Shown piece after piece: positions 32,322 through 40,063 of a DNA stretch of 40,063 bases. A program made the position numbers and the translations under genes. The notes beneath the pieces were generated by a model. It was given only the letters and a program-made list of their open reading frames with translations, was not told the origin of the DNA and searched no databases. The stretch comes from a virus, in the IMG/VR virus record IMGVR_UViG_3300010158_000149, positions 1 to 40,063 of that record. The stretch is one strand, 5' to 3'. Positions within the stretch are counted from its first letter, which is position 1. The number at the start of each line of letters is the position of its first letter.

Positions 32322-32942
32322 ATGTCAGTAATAACACTATCATATAAAGTAGAAGGATTTATCAAAATTCATGACCCTAACAACGGGGAAGTATTTGTAG
32401 AGAAGAAAAATGCTATAAATTATGAAACCATGTCTGAGGCCATTGCTGATACATTAAGCAGCCGAGGTTACGGGGAAATCTATGAAATGGCATTTGGGAA
32501 TGGCGGCGCAAGTGTTTCTGATACTGGGGTTATTACGTATTTGCCACCAAACGTAACTGGACAAAACGCAGCATTATATAACCAAACTTACGCAAAAATC
32601 GTAGACGATACTAGCGTTTTTAACTTGGATCCTACACGTAACAAGATGACAGTTACACATACAACGGGCAAATATTATACTGATATTTTGGTACAATGTT
32701 TGCTAGATTACGGCGAGCCTGCCGGACAGGCAGCATTTGATAATAGTACCCAAACTGATAGTTCTTATATTTTTGATGAATTGGGTTTATTAGCTAGATA
32801 CGGGACGGATGCCACCGGGAATGTAATCACTAGATTATTGACACACGTAATATTTCACCCAGTACAAAAGAGTTTAAACAGACAGATTCAAATTGATTAT
32901 ACGGTTAGAATTCAAAGTTTAACGAATCTAGTAACAATTTAA
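32322..32942 (+). CDS. Conserved virion structural protein
   Basis: A 206-residue protein starting one base after the 48-codon gene, with GAGG about 10 nt upstream. The N-terminal strand pair (FIKIHDPNNGEVFVEKKNAI) is followed by NYETMSEAIADTLSSRG and EMAFGNGG, then beta-rich sequence with a C-terminal QIQIDYTVRIQSL. The K-N-A-I-N/H-x-x-x-M-S and M-A-F-G-N-G-G motifs recur in structural proteins of T4-like and related myoviruses, generally annotated only as virion proteins. Its position between the giant tail protein and the fibre-like genes supports a baseplate-periphery or fibre-attachment role. No enzyme motif is seen. Confidence 0.65.
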   Translation: MSVITLSYKVEGFIKIHDPNNGEVFVEKKNAINYETMSEAIADTLSSRGYGEIYEMAFGNGGASVSDTGVITYLPPNVTGQNAALYNQTYAKIVDDTSVFNLDPTRNKMTVTHTTGKYYTDILVQCLLDYGEPAGQAAFDNSTQTDSSYIFDELGLLARYGTDATGNVITRLLTHVIFHPVQKSLNRQIQIDYTVRIQSLTNLVTI

Positions 32943-32950
32943 GATAAATA
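32943..32950 (+). promoter_or_regulatory. Putative T4-type late promoter before the fibre-like genes
   Basis: GATAAATA right after the 32322 gene's stop, 23 nt before the next ATG. A good Shine-Dalgarno (GGAG, 32960-32963) lies between. This is the best-arranged of the NATAAATA copies. Confidence 0.55.
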
Positions 32951-32973
32951 ATAGATATCGGAGTAATTTCAAA

Positions 32974-34227
32974 ATGGCATATACAATTGTAAAAACTAAT
33001 GGTCAAGTATTAACGACCATTGCTGACGGAACTATTAATACTAATAGCACCTCATTAGCATTACCTGGCAGGAACTATGCCGGTTACGGACAATATTTAG
33101 ACACAAACTTTGTTCATGTGTTGGAAAGTTTTGCTAATACTAGTCCTCCTGCTAATCCGCTACAGGGTCAATTGTGGTTCAATACCAATGCTAACACATT
33201 ATGCGTTTGCCCAGCAGATGGCACCACAACAGCAAGTTCATGGATTACTCTAGCACAATCAGGAAGTGGCGGAACTACAACGTTTGGAACAGTAACTGTC
33301 ACCGGTAGTCTTACTGCTAATAATATCACTGCTACTAATAATTCAAACGCCGATGTTATAACAACTAGAATGTTGACAGTTAATGCAAATGCTAACATCA
33401 CTAACGCATTCATCACAACTGCCAACGTTACTACATTTAATACTCAAGTTATCTCAACTGGATCACAAAGCACAACTGGTGTTCAAACAGGTGTTTGGAC
33501 ACAAAACGGAGCAGGAACTGCTAACGGTATTGCTGGTACTAGTATGTGGGTTACCGGTGGTAATCTTGTAATTTCTGGCGGCGGCTCAATTGGATTGAAA
33601 CTCAATCCAAACTATTTCTATGATTTAACTGGTAATGTTATTAGTTTTGCAGGTAGTTATAATAACGGTAATGTATCAGAATACTTATCCAACGCAAGTG
33701 TATCTGGTGGACGTTTTGCAGGAGCAATTTTCCCTGCTAGTGTAACAACAGGTAACATCACAACAGGCGGATCTGGTACAGGTGGGCAAATTACTGGTAC
33801 ATGGACATTAACTGCTAATTCTAGATTAAATGCTACTTATGCTGACTTGGCAGAACGTTTTGAAGCAGATGCTTACTACGATGCAGGTACAGTTGTTGAA
33901 TTAGGCGGAGAAAAAGAAATCACTAGTTCCAAATATGAATTAAGTGAAGATATATTTGGTGTCATCTCTGATACTGCTGCTTACTTAATGAATTCAGGCG
34001 CAGGTGATAATACAACTCACCCGCCGGTAGCTATGACAGGACGTGTTCAAGTTAAAGCAACCGGTGTAGTTAAAAAGGGTGATCGTTTAGTCAGCGCAGG
34101 TAACGGTATAGCACGAGCAGCACAACACGGCGAGGCAACTGCTTTCAATGTCATTGGACGAGCATTAGAAAACAAAACAACTAATAATATTGGAACAGTT
34201 TTAGCAATTGTTACGGTATCTAAATAA
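32974..34227 (+). CDS. Tail fibre-like protein with a C-terminal Peptidase_G2-like domain
   Basis: A 417-residue protein. The N-terminal ~75 residues (MAYTIVKTNGQVLTTIADGT, then YGQYLDTNFVHVLESFA and PLQGQLWFN) form a head found on many fibre-like proteins of T4-like aquatic phages, probably the virion-attachment end. The middle (about 100-280) is a Thr/Asn/Gly-rich beta stalk. From about residue 288 a compact domain begins with YADLAERFEADAYYDAGTVV and contains GVISDTAAYLMNSG, HPPVAMTGRVQVKATG, VKKGDRLVS and IGRALE. This resembles C-terminal Peptidase_G2-type (intramolecular chaperone) domains of phage appendages, which can fold trimers and then cleave; self-cleavage here is unproven. It sits behind a good promoter and GGAG. 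Confidence 0.65.
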   Translation: MAYTIVKTNGQVLTTIADGTINTNSTSLALPGRNYAGYGQYLDTNFVHVLESFANTSPPANPLQGQLWFNTNANTLCVCPADGTTTASSWITLAQSGSGGTTTFGTVTVTGSLTANNITATNNSNADVITTRMLTVNANANITNAFITTANVTTFNTQVISTGSQSTTGVQTGVWTQNGAGTANGIAGTSMWVTGGNLVISGGGSIGLKLNPNYFYDLTGNVISFAGSYNNGNVSEYLSNASVSGGRFAGAIFPASVTTGNITTGGSGTGGQITGTWTLTANSRLNATYADLAERFEADAYYDAGTVVELGGEKEITSSKYELSEDIFGVISDTAAYLMNSGAGDNTTHPPVAMTGRVQVKATGVVKKGDRLVSAGNGIARAAQHGEATAFNVIGRALENKTTNNIGTVLAIVTVSK

Positions 34228-34236
34228 GGATTAAAA

Positions 34237-35196
34237 ATGGCAAATTACGGCGTCGGCAATACAATACTAGCAACGGATTTTAACTCACTAGTAGGTACTA
34301 ATCCAAATACTACTTCTGGTACATTAAACACAGTGTGGTCTACTGGTGGAACAACTGCGGGATATGGACAAACTGCTGTACCAACTGTATCAGCTGGAAA
34401 TTTAGTCTATGCTGCAGATTGGGCTAACTTAATCAATAAAACAGCAAACGCAAACTTACATCAAGGTACTTCAATAACGGGTGTTACTGCTCCGCCAGCA
34501 GGGAACACAATTCAATATAATGCTAATATACCCACTAACTTAACATCAATTTATACAGGTAGATTAAACGCAGCAAGCCAGGGTAGTACAACAGCTAACA
34601 CAGTAACTACAGCAAGTACATGGAGTAACATAGCAACATTTACACATACTGTATCTTTTGCTAATGGTGACGCAGCAAGATATTTCTTTAACGCAGGTGG
34701 ACAATTAAAAGTAACTTGTAGTCACCCAAACACAGCAGCTGGTATCAATTTACTATTAAATGGTTTGGCATCTAACGTGGGAACATTAGTTACTAGCGCC
34801 CCGTCATCCGGCACAATAACAATTATATCTCCTACTACTTATACTGGGTTTCAAAAGGTAGGCGGCGGTGGCAGTGCTCCTAGTCCATATCTTACTAATA
34901 CTGGATACTATGCGCTGACTACTTCAAATGCTACTGTGTTTTCACAGGTAGCAGGAGGCGGAACAGCATATTTGAATACGTTTATTAGTCTTACTACTAA
35001 AAGTAGTGGAACCCAAGGATCAAACGGAGACGTTGGTAATGTAATTACATTATACACCGTCTGGGATGAAGTTCCAAACAACTTAACAGTGGGTACAGGT
35101 TCAACTGTTACTGTAACTGCCCAAGCCCCAGAAACAACATATTTGGCTAATACTTGGGGAACAATTACTATTGCTGGATCAGTCGTAGTAGCATAA
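34237..35196 (+). CDS. Fibre-like virion structural protein
   Basis: A 319-residue protein with AAGGA seven bases before its ATG. Opening MANYGVGNTILATDFNSLVG, then YGQTAVPTVSAGNLVYAADW, marks an attachment-like N-terminal domain. The rest is Thr/Ser/Asn/Gly-rich beta sequence with a shared aromatic core (GDAARYFFNAGGQLKVTCSH; ITLYTVWDEVPNNLTVG) and a strand at the C-terminus (TITIAGSVVV). The composition matches a trimeric fibre or tip protein. Similar genes accompany fibre genes in T4-like aquatic phages, usually as unspecified structural proteins. A receptor-binding role is plausible but not shown. Confidence 0.6.
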   Translation: MANYGVGNTILATDFNSLVGTNPNTTSGTLNTVWSTGGTTAGYGQTAVPTVSAGNLVYAADWANLINKTANANLHQGTSITGVTAPPAGNTIQYNANIPTNLTSIYTGRLNAASQGSTTANTVTTASTWSNIATFTHTVSFANGDAARYFFNAGGQLKVTCSHPNTAAGINLLLNGLASNVGTLVTSAPSSGTITIISPTTYTGFQKVGGGGSAPSPYLTNTGYYALTTSNATVFSQVAGGGTAYLNTFISLTTKSSGTQGSNGDVGNVITLYTVWDEVPNNLTVGTGSTVTVTAQAPETTYLANTWGTITIAGSVVVA

Positions 35197-35206
35197 TTTT
35201 TTATCA

Positions 35207-35254
35207 TCTTTGTATCCATCTAAATACTCATAGGAGTACACATGGATACAAAGA
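35207..35254 (+). promoter_or_regulatory. Two-tier hairpin enclosing the ribosome-binding site and start codon
   Basis: Bases 35207-35219 pair perfectly with 35242-35254 (13 bp; CTTTGTATCCAT against ATGGATACAAAG plus one pair), so the ATG at 35242 is in the 3' arm. Inside the 22-nt loop, TACTC (35225-35229) pairs with GAGTA (35234-35238), covering most of the AGGAG Shine-Dalgarno (35232-35236). No U-tract follows, so it is not a terminator. Read-through RNA should hide the start; RNA begun inside the loop would not. Confidence 0.8.
35219..35226 (+). promoter_or_regulatory. Possible variant late promoter inside the hairpin loop
   Basis: TCTAAATA differs from NATAAATA at one position and lies 16 nt before the ATG, the spacing seen upstream of gp25 and gp6. 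Transcripts starting a few bases downstream would lack the hairpin's 5' arm. The one-base mismatch keeps this tentative. Confidence 0.3.
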
Positions 35255-35547
35255 CAATAATTGCCGAAGCTAGAGCCCGCTTCAATCATAACTCAGCCAA
35301 AGCATATCTAAAAGACAAATATGACAGCAAATTTATCATTGCTGATCAAGGTGGACTTTGGCGCGCAAAATTAGAAATTATTAATTTCTTAACTAACTCA
35401 ACAGAAGAACATGTTATCTTAATGGATAACTTTGATAATCCTGTTAAAGTAGATAGAATCTCATTGCTAGACAAACTAAGCACCACTTATCATACCGTTA
35501 TGGAAGAATGGTATAGTGAATGGGTAGAACTAGAGAAGAAAAGATGA
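35242..35547 (+). CDS. Conserved hypothetical protein, first gene of the modification cassette
   Basis: A 101-residue, charged, mostly helical protein: MDTKTIIAEARARFNHNSAK at the start, a central strand pair (KFIIADQGGLWRAKLEII; HVILMDNFDNPVKVDR), and a helical, Trp-rich end (MEEWYSEWVELEKKR). I recall relatives in T4-like aquatic phages near fibre genes but no known function. There is no signal peptide or membrane segment. It has a strong AGGAG, but both this and the ATG are inside the hairpin at 35207-35254, so translation is probably controlled. Its stop overlaps the next ATG (ATGA), coupling the glycosyltransferase to it. Control of this start may therefore affect the genes behind it. 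Confidence 0.7.
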   Translation: MDTKTIIAEARARFNHNSAKAYLKDKYDSKFIIADQGGLWRAKLEIINFLTNSTEEHVILMDNFDNPVKVDRISLLDKLSTTYHTVMEEWYSEWVELEKKR

Positions 35548-36350
35548 GTAAAGGCGCATTGTTATTTGCGTTTAACTCGCCCAAATTCAATTACTATACA
35601 ATGGCTGTGGCGACAGCTAAACGTATTAATCATTTCTTAAACTTGCCTGTTACCATAGTTACGGATGAGGACTCGATTCCTTCATCTATTGATTACAAAT
35701 TTGATAACACTATCAAAGTAATAGCAGATAAATCAAACACAAGAGATTGGGGAATGTGGATCAATAAAGGGAGATATCAAGCATATGAACTTAGTCCATA
35801 TGACGAAACACTTTTGTTGGACACCGATTATATGGTTAATTCGGATAAGTTATTAACAACATTTGATTTACCAACAGACTTTTGCTGCCATGATAGAACT
35901 AGTTACTTGATGCAACCAACTATGTCACAGGAAGTGTTAAGTGTGTATAGCGTTAATACATTGTGGGCTACTGTCATTAACTTTAAAAAAACAAAAAGAG
36001 CAAAATCTATATTTGAATGTTTAAAAATGGTTCAAAACAATTTTCAACATTATGGAAATATTCACGGCTTTATTGACTCAACGTTCCGTAATGATTATGG
36101 ATTAACAATAGCTACAAGAATAACAAACGGACATACAACCCCAATTAATGATTATATCCCATGGAATTTATTACATGCCGGAACAAACACTAAAGTATAT
36201 AGAAACAATGACAATGAGTTTAATACAGAATATACTGTAATGTTTGACCACTGGAATAGAGGTAAGATTCGTAAAGAATATATGACAATAAAAGATACTG
36301 ATTTTCATATGATGTTTAAAGATAACTTTATGGAGCTAATACGTGAATAA
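35544..36350 (+). CDS. GT-A-like glycosyltransferase, paralogue 1
   Basis: A 268-residue protein. I chose the ATG at 35544 because it overlaps the preceding TGA (ATGA) and gives MSKGALLFAF as the first strand; an upstream in-frame start would only add residues from the previous gene. The N-terminal half looks like a nucleotide-sugar-binding Rossmann-type fold: PVTIVTDED (about 35-43), then LSPYDETLLLDTDYMV with a DTD at 93-95, the place of the metal-binding DxD. The C-terminal half has conserved aromatic and His residues (IPWNLLHAG, VMFDHWNRGK). Donor and acceptor are unknown. The next gene has the same layout, so the two look like a tandem duplication. Confidence 0.6.
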   Translation: MSKGALLFAFNSPKFNYYTMAVATAKRINHFLNLPVTIVTDEDSIPSSIDYKFDNTIKVIADKSNTRDWGMWINKGRYQAYELSPYDETLLLDTDYMVNSDKLLTTFDLPTDFCCHDRTSYLMQPTMSQEVLSVYSVNTLWATVINFKKTKRAKSIFECLKMVQNNFQHYGNIHGFIDSTFRNDYGLTIATRITNGHTTPINDYIPWNLLHAGTNTKVYRNNDNEFNTEYTVMFDHWNRGKIRKEYMTIKDTDFHMMFKDNFMELIRE

Positions 36351-37131
36351 AGGTTTTGTAATAATGGCTCAGAATACTGAGAAAACAAATTATACTAATT
36401 GTGCTGAAAAACTAGCAATGAGTATCAAACGAGTTATGCCCTCAGCTAGTGTTTCTATTGTAACTAATGATCGTTGTGATTGGTCTGTGTTTGATCATGT
36501 CATTGATTTACCACACGGTGACTTAGCCAAGAACAGTGATTGGAAACTAATTAATGATTGGCAAGTATATGAAGCAAGCCCATATGATTACACAATCAAA
36601 TTAGAAGCCGATATGTATATCCCACGTAACATAGATCATTGGTGGGATGTGTTAAAAGAACGAGATGTAGTTATTTCTAGTACTATTAGAAATGTTAAAC
36701 AAGAAATTTCAGATGTAAGAGTATATCGCAGGTTCATTGACGATAATAACTTGCCTGATGTGTACAATGCTATAACTTATTTTAAAAAATCAGATACTGC
36801 TAAAAAATTCTTTGAGTTAGTTAAAGAAATTTTTAATAATTGGGAAGAATATAAGAGAATATTAAAATGTAATCCAGCTGAGATAGCAACAACTGACTGG
36901 GTTTATTCCCTAGCTTCTCATATACTTGGAATAGAAAAAACCACGCTACCCACATTCACTGAAATGAGTATGATACATATGAAACAGTTTATAAACAATC
37001 ATCCTACTGAAAATTGGACTGATACGTTTATATATGAATGTCTACCTGATCAGATACGAATACAAACAATTCCGCAATTGTATCCGCTACACTATCATGT
37101 AAAGAATTTTTGTGATAAAATAATTGTATGA
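36343..37131 (+). CDS. GT-A-like glycosyltransferase, paralogue 2
   Basis: A 262-residue protein starting with GTG and overlapping the previous gene by 8 nt. GTG is favoured over the ATG at 36364 because it restores the first strand (NKGFVIMAQNTEKTNYTNCA), which aligns with the start of paralogue 1. SVSIVTNDR and ASPYDYTIKLEADMYIPRN align with its PVTIVTDED and SPYDETLLLDTDYMV. The DxD is replaced by EAD (88-90), so metal binding may be altered. The C-terminal half keeps aromatic and His residues (TEMSMIHMKQF; YPLHYHVKNF). A sugar transfer next to that of paralogue 1 is a reasonable guess. It is coupled to the next gene by ATGA. Confidence 0.55.
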   Translation: MNKGFVIMAQNTEKTNYTNCAEKLAMSIKRVMPSASVSIVTNDRCDWSVFDHVIDLPHGDLAKNSDWKLINDWQVYEASPYDYTIKLEADMYIPRNIDHWWDVLKERDVVISSTIRNVKQEISDVRVYRRFIDDNNLPDVYNAITYFKKSDTAKKFFELVKEIFNNWEEYKRILKCNPAEIATTDWVYSLASHILGIEKTTLPTFTEMSMIHMKQFINNHPTENWTDTFIYECLPDQIRIQTIPQLYPLHYHVKNFCDKIIV

Positions 37132-37472
37132 GTGAACAAGAAGATGTAATTATTCTTTGGGGAGCACCCAAAGCCGAGAAGCCTGAATTCAGATTATACT
37201 ACGATGAGAATGGAAAAGTTCTTTCTTATTGTGGTGACAGGTCTATGCCGGGAGACAACTATATTGTAATTGACGCACAAACGTTTGCCGAAGGAAGACA
37301 TGACCTACAAATCATCGACGGTAAAATTTCAAAAGCACAACCTAATCAAGTTGTATATAAATTGATGCCTAACTCTAGGGAAGGGGTCACATGTCATCCA
37401 GAAGATATTAGCATTATAGTGAATGATACTGAAGAAAACATTAAATGGAAGCTAAACATATATGAACTCTGA
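37128..37472 (+). CDS. Small hypothetical protein of T4-like phages
   Basis: A 114-residue beta-rich protein starting in an ATGA overlap. The readable pattern is PEFRLYYDENGKVLSYCGD (about 19-37), DNYIVIDAQTFAEGRHDLQI and IDGKISK, then a C-terminal strand with the last residues KWKLNIYEL. I recall small proteins with this F-R-L-Y-Y-D-E-x-G-K-V and V-I-D-x-x-T-F order in many T4-like aquatic phages, but no function. It overlaps the next gene by 11 nt. No catalytic or membrane feature is visible. In this context it might be an accessory factor, or a peptide acted on by the radical SAM protein; that is speculation. Confidence 0.6.
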   Translation: MSEQEDVIILWGAPKAEKPEFRLYYDENGKVLSYCGDRSMPGDNYIVIDAQTFAEGRHDLQIIDGKISKAQPNQVVYKLMPNSREGVTCHPEDISIIVNDTEENIKWKLNIYEL

Positions 37473-38412
37473 TATAGTAGATGTAGCTGATTTAGATTGT
37501 ATCTATCTAAGTTATGATGAGCCACAGAAAGAAGAATTCTGGCTTAAGATAAAGAACATGGTGCCATGGGCCAAGCGTGTTGATAGTGTTAAGGGAAGTG
37601 ATGCGGCACACAAAGCAGCGGGAGAAGCTAGCGACACAGAACGATTCATTCTAATTGATGGCGATAATATGCCAGATGAAAGTTTCTTTAACATTCAATT
37701 GGACTTTACTGATAAGACCCCTGAATTCAAACTAGCACAGTTTCGTTGGAAAGCAGTTAACAGTATCAACGGATTACGTTATGGTAACGGTGGTATGAGT
37801 AGCTGGACTAAAACATACGTGCGTGATATGAAAACTCATGAAAATCAAAAAGAGGGTGATGTTTCACGTATTGCTGATTTCTGTATGGACAGTAAAGATA
37901 ATTTATACTGGGCAATGCATGACTGCTATTCTACTACTTATCCTAATTATACTCCGTTTCAAGCGTGGCGTGCTGGATTCCGTGAAGGAGTAAAAATGGT
38001 GCTTGATAAAGGAGCAAGACCTGATATCGATACCTTCAAAGAAACTGTTGCTAGTCGCAACCTAAATAACTTAACTATTTGGCACAATGTAGGAAGTGAT
38101 GTTGAGAATGGAATGTGGGCTATATATGGTGCTAGACTTGGCACATATATGACTATGCTAACTGATTGGGACCATGCAAACGTACAATGGTTTGATAACT
38201 ATATAGTATTGTGGGAAGAACAAGAATATAGAGATCCAGAACGTGAAGCGACACTATTAGGTGCCGCATTAAGTGATAAACTTGGGTTACCTATGTGTAC
38301 ACTAGGAAAAGAACAAAGCAAGTTCTTCAAGCGTCATTATAACGCCGATAAATATAACATCGGCCCATTAGTAACAGAAATGGACGTAATAAGAAAAGTT
38401 GAAGGCTGGTAA
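37462..38412 (+). CDS. Glycosyltransferase-like protein with a DGD motif
   Basis: A 316-residue protein starting 11 nt before the previous stop. The N-terminus (CIYLSYDEPQKEEFW, then KRVDSVKGSDAAHKAAGE) leads to RFILIDGDNMPDESF, where D66-G67-D68 occupies the DxD position of a GT-A fold. NSINGLRYGNGGMSSW and FQAWRAGFREGVKM follow. I recall this motif set in a widespread, uncharacterised phage family (SYDEP, VKG, DGDN, NGLxYGNGG, AWRAGFREG). The order supports a nucleotide-diphosphosugar transferase-like fold, but no activity is known to me. It is not close to the two preceding glycosyltransferases. Its stop overlaps the radical SAM start (TAATG). Confidence 0.6.
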   Translation: MNSDIVDVADLDCIYLSYDEPQKEEFWLKIKNMVPWAKRVDSVKGSDAAHKAAGEASDTERFILIDGDNMPDESFFNIQLDFTDKTPEFKLAQFRWKAVNSINGLRYGNGGMSSWTKTYVRDMKTHENQKEGDVSRIADFCMDSKDNLYWAMHDCYSTTYPNYTPFQAWRAGFREGVKMVLDKGARPDIDTFKETVASRNLNNLTIWHNVGSDVENGMWAIYGARLGTYMTMLTDWDHANVQWFDNYIVLWEEQEYRDPEREATLLGAALSDKLGLPMCTLGKEQSKFFKRHYNADKYNIGPLVTEMDVIRKVEGW

Positions 38413-39365
38413 TGGAACAAAAATATATTAAATTAGAACACTTAAACCCTGATCACAAAAATTGGTTTGTAGTTAATTGGTGCTTGGGAAATACTTGTAA
38501 TTTCGCTTGCTCATACTGCCCTTCACATTTACATGATGGCTCTATCAAATGGCCAACTGTAGAAACTATCAAAAAATTTATTCTTAAGATAAAGAACCAT
38601 TACTCTGATAAGAATCTATACTTTGAATTCACAGGCGGTGAAGTTACTATGTATAGACATTTTACGGAAATATGTCAATACTGTACAGATTTGGGAATTA
38701 AAGTAGGTCTCATTTCCAATGGGTCACGTACAATCAGATACTGGGAAGATAACATGCAATACTTTGACCATGTATGTTTAAGTTTTCACCCTGAGTACAG
38801 TGAAGAACAACATTTTATTGATGTTGTTAAATTGCTTCATAATGATGTAAGAACTCACGTTAATATAATGATGAGTCCTGAAAAGTTTGATTTCTGCTAT
38901 GCTATAGCAAACAAGATAAAAAACATTGGTAATATCTCAATGGCATTACAACCATTAATATATGATTTTGGAGATACGTTGTATGATTACAATGATTTTC
39001 AAAAGAAAATATTTGACAAGCAGCACGAACTAATTGTTAAGCACATTAAGTACACCAAGTCTTTTGATTACTACAGGGGAGCAATGAGTAAAGTATATGC
39101 TGACGGAACAACTGAACCATCTAGCGCACATAGATTTATTAATGAAAAAACAAATGATTGGTCTGGTTGGAAATGTAATGTTGGGGTAGAGCAATTGATT
39201 GTGGATATGTATGGAACCATTCAACGCGGTTGGTGTTTAGTTGGTGGACCAATTGGTAACATAGCTGACGATGATATTGAATTCCCATCTGCTCCTATAA
39301 TTTGTAATAAAACAATGTGTCATTGTAACTTTGACATAATGAGTACAAAAGAATATAATGTTTAG
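38412..39365 (+). CDS. Radical SAM protein with C-terminal SPASM/twitch-like cysteines
   Basis: A 317-residue protein with the radical SAM cluster motif CxxxCxxC at C29, C33 and C36 (NTCNFACSYCP), preceded by an extra Cys at 24. FEFTGGEVTM (GGE at 75-77) is the SAM-binding GGE motif; KVGLISNGS and HVCLSFHPE are later barrel strands. A C-terminal set (C255, C275, C298, C303, C305) with a DMYGTIQRGWC segment fits a SPASM/twitch auxiliary cluster. Such enzymes use SAM and reduced iron-sulfur clusters to start radical chemistry, often on peptides or sugars. In this cassette, modification of a sugar or virion peptide is plausible. The start overlaps the upstream stop. Confidence 0.8.
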   Translation: MEQKYIKLEHLNPDHKNWFVVNWCLGNTCNFACSYCPSHLHDGSIKWPTVETIKKFILKIKNHYSDKNLYFEFTGGEVTMYRHFTEICQYCTDLGIKVGLISNGSRTIRYWEDNMQYFDHVCLSFHPEYSEEQHFIDVVKLLHNDVRTHVNIMMSPEKFDFCYAIANKIKNIGNISMALQPLIYDFGDTLYDYNDFQKKIFDKQHELIVKHIKYTKSFDYYRGAMSKVYADGTTEPSSAHRFINEKTNDWSGWKCNVGVEQLIVDMYGTIQRGWCLVGGPIGNIADDDIEFPSAPIICNKTMCHCNFDIMSTKEYNV

Positions 39366-40063
39366 ATATTGTGTATTATCGACCCCTAGAACCGGCAGCA
39401 CCTGGTTAAATACTGGGATTGGCCATTCTTATTGTACAATAAAAAACTACATTAATTTAAATGAATTTTTTATTCCATTTTCAAATGAATGTGCAAGATA
39501 TGAATTAAACAAAGATCAAATAATAATTAGAGTCAATGAAGATAAACCAATAGAAATGTCTGATGTTAACCAATTTATAAATGATAGGACAAATATATTA
39601 CTTTCTGGTGATAATCGTCAACCGTTGGTTTTAAAATATATGTATTGGCCATTTCGTGGTTACGAAATAGAACACCTAAAACTTCTTGAAAAAATACAAG
39701 CGCATAGAATTACTGTTGTCAATATAAACAGAGATACTTTTGATAGTACAATAAGTTATATCACCGCGGAGCTCACCGGAATTACTCATCGATGGATCAC
39801 ATCGCCTAAGGTTGAGTGGTGGAGTACAGCGGAAGGGAGAAAGCCTGCTATTACTATTCCCAACATTACTATATCGGGACAGGATTTTGAAGCAGTATAT
39901 ATACAAGCATTAATTGCAAACCAAGAAAAAGAAAAAATAACAAATTCATTAGGATGTATCACAGTTAACTATAATAGTTTGCGGGTTGACTGTGCTAAAA
40001 ATAAAATTCCATTTCAATTAATATCACATTCTAAAAAATTATATGATATTGATTATGGTAAAA
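39358..40063 (+). CDS. Sulfotransferase, 3' partial
   Basis: The frame from the ATG at 39358 (8-nt overlap with the radical SAM gene) is open to the window end; 235 residues are visible. The N-terminus YCVLSTPRTGSTWLN holds the PAPS 5'-phosphosulfate loop (S-x-P-R-T-G-S-T, residues 8-15). VVNINRDTFDSTISY, with R125 and S130, fits the 3'-phosphate site. These enzymes move sulfate from PAPS to a hydroxyl or amino group of a carbohydrate or other acceptor. No signal peptide is present, so it would act in the cytoplasm. Following three glycosyltransferase-like genes and a radical SAM gene, a glycan target is likely, though the acceptor is unknown. Confidence 0.75.
   Translation, partial: MFRYCVLSTPRTGSTWLNTGIGHSYCTIKNYINLNEFFIPFSNECARYELNKDQIIIRVNEDKPIEMSDVNQFINDRTNILLSGDNRQPLVLKYMYWPFRGYEIEHLKLLEKIQAHRITVVNINRDTFDSTISYITAELTGITHRWITSPKVEWWSTAEGRKPAITIPNITISGQDFEAVYIQALIANQEKEKITNSLGCITVNYNSLRVDCAKNKIPFQLISHSKKLYDIDYGK

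Follow-up and report, generated by a model that had tools for sequence, protein, structure and literature searches.

A near-invariant glycosyltransferase operon beside phage fiber genes, with an exchangeable tailoring end, may encode fiber-linked glycosylation in T4-like jumbo phages

Clusters of glycosyltransferase (GT) genes in cyanophages and jumbo phages, sporadic and polymorphic in occurrence and accompanied by sugar-kinase and nucleotidyltransferase genes, have been interpreted as modifying lipopolysaccharide and capsule (Iyer 2021, PMC7824862). In the near-identical Campylobacter phages CP220 and CPt10, five radical S-adenosylmethionine (rSAM) genes are exchanged en bloc, and the authors proposed that they boost host metabolism (Timms 2010, PMC2853527). 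In mycobacteriophages, phage GTs are reported to place glycans on capsid and tail-tube subunits of the virion (Freeman 2023, as cited in PMC12619734). Here we analyze IMG/VR virus record IMGVR_UViG_3300010158_000149, an entire contig of 40,063 bases (the window), which ends in seven overlapping or abutting plus-strand open reading frames (ORFs): H1, GT1, GT2, H2, GT3, an rSAM gene (rSAM) and a sulfotransferase gene (ST). We give a probability of about one half to the reading that this region is the distal end of a late virion-fiber operon of a T4-like jumbo myophage, encoding a fiber-linked glycosylation pathway with exchangeable tailoring. The cassette, the fiber genes ahead of it and the box that separates them are as follows:

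32322..32942, plus strand: F1, virion-region protein (phrog_11259, E=4e-66) with homologues in Rak2/121Q/Atu_ph07-like jumbo phages
32974..34227, plus strand: F2, fiber/appendage protein with a Peptidase_G2 (intramolecular chaperone) domain (PF11962, E=9e-8)
34237..35196, plus strand: F3, Ser/Thr-rich fiber-like protein (Ser+Thr 27%), proposed glycan acceptor
35219..35227, plus strand: T4-like late-promoter-like box TCTAAATAC ahead of H1; TAAATAC or ATAAATAA is retained in most relatives' F3-H1 gaps
35242..35547, plus strand: H1, small protein, first gene of the GT operon (27-member alignment; found in 142/145 loci)
35544..36350, plus strand: GT1, GT8/glycogenin-like glycosyltransferase (ATGA overlap with H1; the listed ORF opens at 35520)
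36343..37131, plus strand: GT2, GT8/glycogenin-like glycosyltransferase, paralogue of GT1 (GTG start, 8 nt overlap with GT1)
37128..37472, plus strand: H2, variable-length protein with an RLYYDxxG motif (from the alignment; ATGA junction with GT2)
37462..38412, plus strand: GT3, divergent GT-A-like putative glycosyltransferase with a DGDN motif (11 nt overlap with H2)
38412..39365, plus strand: rSAM, radical SAM enzyme whose C-terminal part holds auxiliary cysteines (TAATG junction with GT3)
39358..40063, plus strand: ST, 3'-phosphoadenosine 5'-phosphosulfate (PAPS)-type sulfotransferase (8 nt overlap with rSAM; 3' end cut by the contig end)

The linkage of the cassette to fiber genes, and the order of its core, are strongly conserved. 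An rSAM-bait scan of IMG/VR returned 80 loci, and scans with GT3 and GT1 as baits, run to remove the bias of the rSAM bait, each kept the closest 80 of at least ~600 candidates. The pooled non-redundant set comprises 151 IMG/VR loci, 145 of them with sufficient upstream sequence; as the scans retained the loci nearest to their queries, the frequencies apply to close members and not to remoter ones. GT1 and GT2 are present in 145/145, F3 and H1 each in 142/145, and F3-H1-GT1-GT2 stand in this order in 139/145, which ties the GT genes to virion genes in the manner expected of virion glycosylation. Among the 80 loci closest to the GT3 bait, every one that could be tested (79/79) has F3, GT1 and GT2 upstream; the GT1 bait gave F3 upstream in 73/76 loci, again among the closest 80. 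The full order F1-F2-F3-H1-GT1-GT2-H2-GT3-rSAM recurs in the rSAM-bait loci to as low as 50% rSAM identity. The junctions are equally tight, with H1-GT1 overlapping or abutting in 51/51 related loci, GT1-GT2 in 52/52, and GT3 overlapping or nearly touching a directly following rSAM-type gene in 84/90 cases.

The 3' part, by comparison with this core, is exchangeable. Some rSAM gene lies within three genes downstream of GT3 in 129/144 pooled loci; the window-type rSAM is found within that distance of GT3 in just 3/77 loci recovered without the rSAM bait, and in 46/77 of these the first gene 3' of GT3 is an N-twitch rSAM. Sulfotransferases occur within five genes downstream in 16/144 pooled loci. 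The cassettes of relatives hold several N-twitch rSAMs, or SGNH-like, sulfotransferase, nucleoside triphosphate (NTP)-transferase, methyltransferase or 2-oxoglutarate (2OG) oxygenase genes. A 345-kb relative keeps the whole block F2-F2-F3-(2OG-Fe(II) oxygenase)-H1-GT1-GT2-x-GT3-GT3', in which the oxygenase (L089:6865-7434; PF13640, E=4e-15) lies between F3 and H1, while its rSAM gene is ~85 kb away; since the rSAM has been relocated and the GT block still adjoins the fibers, it is the GT core that stays with the fiber genes. The cassette is two-part, with a fixed core F1-F2-F3-H1-GT1-GT2-H2-GT3 and a swappable 3' part.

A preliminary description of this DNA had proposed a co-expressed set of seven overlapping genes next to fiber genes, with an order that should be conserved in relatives. 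All ORFs and overlaps were confirmed, with the start of GT1 moved from 35520 to 35544 because its relatives begin at MxxG, which gives an ATGA with the H1 stop; co-expression is supported by the overlaps and the late-promoter-like box; and the fiber genes F1-F3 (32322-35196) do lie immediately upstream. Conservation of gene order was borne out for H1-GT1-GT2-GT3, but rSAM and ST proved exchangeable, and the exact set of seven does not hold as a unit. Each gene is nonetheless under purifying selection: in a codon comparison of the window with its nearest relative, the ratio of nonsynonymous to synonymous substitution rates is below 0.4 throughout (rSAM 0.02, GT2 0.08, GT3 0.08, GT1 0.10, ST 0.39).

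That nearest relative is L002, a 229,851-bp contig whose rSAM is 98% identical to that of the window. Its operon continues beyond the first ST with a second sulfotransferase, five N-twitch rSAM genes (NF033640; four above the curated cut-off and one slightly under) and two SGNH-like genes, assigned by eye via the GCS motif. Because the operon of L002 extends past ST, the window appears to show just its first half.

The genomic setting points to late expression in a large phage. T4-type baseplate genes (gp53-, gp5-, gp25- and gp6-like) lie upstream of the fiber region, and the gp6-like protein is nearest to Sinorhizobium phage Phosso, Agrobacterium phage Atu_ph07 and the Rak2/121Q/GAP32 jumbo phages (~33% identity), an affinity that marks the window as part of the genome of a T4-like jumbo myophage. 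Among the homologues of F2 are a PA5oct protein annotated as a virion structural protein and 121Q gp577. The sequence TAAATA is present in 5/8 of the window's intergenic gaps that precede virion genes, the one ahead of F1 included, and always on the coding strand, against 1.1 expected (P=0.004, shuffling); this is the pattern expected for T4-like late promoters. No TAAATA occurs at the junctions inside the cassette, which makes a single late transcript for the cassette probable. Matches in a sigma-70 promoter scan were no better than in shuffled sequence. We also note, upstream of the fiber genes, one unbroken ORF at 12139-32160 (6,673 amino acids (aa); 20 kb, half of the contig; 20% Ser+Thr), which corresponds in position to the giant structural protein of the 121Q and Atu_ph07 virions and exceeds both in size.

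The enzyme classes named in the preliminary description are supported, with the correction that GT1 and GT2 are paralogues of each other (profile comparison, E=1e-29), whereas GT3 is from another family, which is divergent. GT1 has D101xD103, H263 and K267 invariant across 28 sequences, and so carries both the DxD motif and the C-terminal metal-binding His; in GT2, H250 is invariant in 32 sequences and D90 nearly so. The top PDB fold for the AlphaFold model of GT1 (predicted local distance difference test (pLDDT) score 91) is glycogenin (Foldseek E=2.5e-7, prob 1.00, template modeling (TM) score ~0.4), and for GT2 a sequence-profile search likewise matched glycogenin (E=1.3e-5). By these models and profiles GT1 and GT2 are glycogenin-fold enzymes. 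Glycogenin glycosylates protein Tyr. Pfam gave no match for the window GT1 or GT2, nor a GT8 match for any of 32 GT2 members, which is why we term them GT8-like and do not assign them to GT8. In GT3, the residues D66, D68 and N69 of the DGDN motif are invariant (51% mean column identity); a PDB profile search with GT3 gave no match, its profile is unrelated to that of GT1, and we regard it as a putative GT-A-like enzyme. Of the other two core proteins, H1 has no match in PDB (also searched by profile), Pfam or PHROG, and a PDB profile search with H2 gave none, longer versions occupying the H2 position in divergent loci.

GT3 and rSAM are fused into single ORFs in another phage group (four different proteins; E=1e-41 to 1e-46 for the GT3 domain and E<1e-176 for the rSAM domain), so the two work jointly, at least in that group, and an F3-like gene lies upstream of the fusion in several loci (L014, L017/L019, L033). 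As a separate observation, N-terminal repeats of the form WYxDPxxNPxxDKVWxxxxxxxGxKDMGYxxP precede the GT3-like domain, either in fusions or in an adjoining 611-aa protein (L013, L014, L017, L025, L033).

The window rSAM matches PF04055 above the cut-off (E=1e-10), and the cluster motif CxxxCxxC by which the superfamily is recognized (C29, C33, C36) is invariant across 24 diverse members, as are five auxiliary cysteines (C255, C275, C298, C303, C305; 67% mean column identity), despite which the SPASM family model gave no match. A viperin-type defense enzyme was considered and rejected, as the score of 59.6 bits, from the core only, lies far under the NCBIfam NF038283 cut-off of 180 bits. Relatives of this rSAM were found by pattern scan in 2/84,980 bacterial and archaeal species genomes, and from these sequences the subfamily looks almost exclusively viral. 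Both occur in metagenome-assembled genomes, with neighboring genes named by eye from sequence. On an Oligoflexia contig (L088:9953-14719) the order rSAM-Ntwitch-rSAM2-Ntwitch adjoins a Wzm/Wzt-like polysaccharide ABC exporter; in a Bdellovibrionaceae assembly (L087) the relative, apparently frame-disrupted in this assembly, is flanked by two flagellin genes with an SGNH-like gene adjacent. Related phage contigs (G001-G010) are rich in radical SAM matches, with 4-12 in nine of them, including 12 in two, and 2 in the tenth, many clustering with the cassette. The N-twitch rSAM run ends in a convergent gene for a conserved protein of ~860 aa (L003:16961-19546, L013:10892-13471 and many more loci); in L003, the locus checked, this protein is a B12-binding radical SAM. 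N-twitch rSAM relatives in the Vibrio phages KVP40 and K566 lie outside any fiber cassette.

In ST, the PRxGS 5' phosphosulfate loop and R125-x7-S133 are invariant or nearly so across 13 sequences, giving both PAPS-binding signatures; we take the R125/S133 spacing to be that of the Arg130/Ser138 pair of SULT. Pfam sulfotransferase models have no match to the window ST, which is truncated; its relatives match Sulfotransfer_1/_3/Stf0 (up to 5/13 per model, best E ~4e-6), and L002 holds a complete copy of 261 aa. A PF01583-like (adenosine 5'-phosphosulfate (APS) kinase) match occurs in 5/10 related contigs; it takes in no more than positions 4-94 of 152, and the ORFs concerned (264-288 aa) are by sequence as likely to encode a general P-loop kinase as an APS kinase.

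In the pathway that we propose, a late transcript starting at the box ahead of H1 would run through H1, GT1, GT2, H2 and GT3 into an exchangeable tailoring set, here rSAM and the PAPS sulfotransferase. GT1-GT3 would most likely furnish the fiber proteins encoded just upstream, which are rich in Ser/Thr (F3, the presumed acceptor, and possibly F2), with a short glycan before assembly; rSAM, the sulfotransferase and related enzymes would diversify the glycan or its peptide anchor; and this would change the appearance of the virion to hosts or competitors. The genes with their overlaps and conservation, the folds and catalytic residues, the GT3-rSAM fusion and the TAAATA box are observed; acceptor, sugars, rSAM chemistry and benefit are all presumptive here, and the rSAM may edit either the sugar or the peptide anchor.

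The main rival is that, late in infection, the cassette remodels the O-antigen or capsule polysaccharide of the host surface, which would prevent superinfection or keep progeny from re-adsorbing to debris, with the fiber genes mere neighbors in a late operon. We consider this possible, though on the unlikely side. The GT clusters of cyanophages and jumbo phages have been so interpreted (Iyer 2021, PMC7824862), and the SGNH-like, sulfotransferase, NTP-transferase and methyltransferase genes of relatives' cassettes would suit it, as would the bacterial settings of the rSAM, next to an exporter in L088 and, in L087, flanked by flagellin genes with an SGNH-like gene nearby. Those published clusters, however, are sporadic and polymorphic, whereas H1-GT1-GT2-GT3 is near-invariant and locked to F3; no flippase or membrane GT was seen, and no cassette protein of the window has a membrane-spanning stretch. 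The sugar nucleotidyltransferase PF00483 occurs in 0/10 related contigs, though the L033 cassette has a copy, and the PF01370 epimerases of related contigs lie far from the cassette.

Several observations count against a fiber target. Of the bacterial relatives of the rSAM, L088 alone lies in an intact chromosomal context, and its exporter neighbor fits a free or lipid-linked glycan; the rSAM/N-twitch part lies away from the fibers in L003, L006 and L010; mirror-tree distance correlations are 0.80-0.92 for all pairs, F1 included, and F3 is not singled out. The best folds for the GT3 model (pLDDT 87) are GT-A/nucleotidyltransferase folds and are weak (E no better than 1e-3, TM ~0.3). Moreover, we infer virion glycans in this group from genes, and shared late expression by itself may explain the adjacency to fiber genes. 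We favor the virion target because of the near-invariant F3 linkage, the late box, the soluble enzymes, the glycogenin fold, the Ser/Thr-rich F3, the 2OG oxygenase within the operon and the cassettes of sister phages. A fiber target is better supported than the host surface, a choice that sequence alone cannot settle.

The sister cassettes are those of the cultured phages Atu_ph07 (L084) and Phosso (L083), where a different cassette stands behind F1-F2, with a JmjC/cupin protein and rSAMs that resemble peptide maturases (DynA/PapB-like, E ~1e-11); 121Q has no such cassette at its F1-F2. That differing cassettes for protein or glycan modification occupy one genome place across branches favors a virion target. 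Flanked by these rSAM and JmjC/cupin genes is a tailed protein of 296-306 aa, which ends CHSSCHASCHNSRSRR in Atu_ph07 (L084:17062-17952; CHSSCHASCH) and CHTSCHASCHSSRSRR in Phosso (L083:16297-17217; CHTSCHASCH). It is a candidate rSAM-matured virion protein of cultured phages. A virion-protein cluster spanning coding sequences (CDS) 170-215 is reported for Atu_ph07 (PMC6102473); the tailed protein of this phage is gp170, which would make its gene the first of that cluster. F3 was considered as a homologue of the CHSSCH protein of Atu_ph07, and the comparison gave no match.

These phages also lend something to a second rival, maturation in the manner of ribosomally synthesized and post-translationally modified peptides, in which rSAM and the N-twitch rSAMs would modify virion peptide or fiber side chains (C-C or thioether crosslinks, epimerization) before the GTs glycosylate the product. 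The core domain of the window rSAM, and that domain only, is similar to the peptide epimerase YydG (E=6e-6), its auxiliary cysteine pattern fits, and the equivalent locus in Atu_ph07/Phosso pairs DynA/PapB-like rSAMs with the CHxSCHxSCH-tailed protein. Yet F1-F3, H1 and H2 of the window have no precursor-like Cys-rich or repeat tail, the CHxxCHxxCH motif is absent from all window-type loci searched, and the cassettes of the two groups are not homologous, which leaves this explanation doubtful. Hypermodification of phage DNA bases by the GTs and rSAM as a shield from restriction, for which there is the general precedent of phage GTs that glycosylate DNA (discussed in PMC12619734), is highly improbable given the late fiber operon location, the glycogenin match of GT1/GT2 and a cassette in which no base hydroxymethylase or kinase was recognized.

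A bolder form of the fiber-glycosylation reading, which we put forward tentatively and consider less probable than its alternatives taken together, is that of a widespread and undescribed virion-maturation pathway of uncultured jumbo phages, in which a dedicated, near-invariant GT1-GT2-GT3 operon would glycosylate fibers, exchangeable rSAMs would edit the glycan or peptide and sulfation would follow, the 3' end of the operon being a swappable surface-chemistry module. If so, hundreds of aquatic jumbo phages would bear fibers with phage-made, rSAM-edited and sometimes sulfated glycans, and fiber specificity would be set by chemistry as well as protein sequence, with a bearing on host-range prediction and particle recognition. 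The conserved core offers a defined operon for testing whether large phages glycosylate their virions, along with many untested rSAM enzymes that have a plausible biological role.

How new is this arrangement? The preliminary description knew of no described phage system with this exact set, a statement that largely holds for the architecture in its exact form, of which a literature search found no description, but overlooks precedents in the rSAM and GT genes of CP220 (PMC2853527) and the cyanophage GT clusters (PMC7824862). A tblastn search of ~50,700 cultured-phage records returned no relative of H1, GT2, GT3, divergent GT1/GT3 or the fusion protein, although single-sequence tblastn can miss remote homologues. 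At the level of fold, glycogenin is the best solved match for GT1 and a PBCV-1 capsid glycosyltransferase is among the weak matches for GT3, but identity is just ~12-16% and hosts, acceptors and genome context are unrelated. The Atu_ph07/Phosso cassette shares with the window its place behind F1-F2 and its several rSAM genes; unlike the window, it has no detected GTs, and there is no homology beyond the generic rSAM core. CP220 (L086) provides the best cultured-phage tblastn match of the window rSAM, in which only the core domain aligns (31% over 40%), and as in the window its rSAMs are adjoined by GT-type genes, namely two nucleotide-diphospho-sugar transferases; an amidinotransferase takes the place of the sulfotransferase, and no F3-type fiber neighbor was seen. 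The mycobacteriophage system concerns other virion proteins, whereas the linkage here is to fibers and in a large uncultured jumbo-phage group. To our knowledge, neither an rSAM nor a sulfotransferase takes part in mycobacteriophage virion glycosylation, and a fiber-locked GT core is known neither there nor from CP220/CPt10. The clusters of Iyer 2021 resemble the window in bringing together several paralogous phage GTs and sugar-modifying enzymes, but rSAM and sulfotransferase go unmentioned there (PMC7824862), and the GT core of the window, unlike those clusters, is near-invariant and linked to fiber genes.

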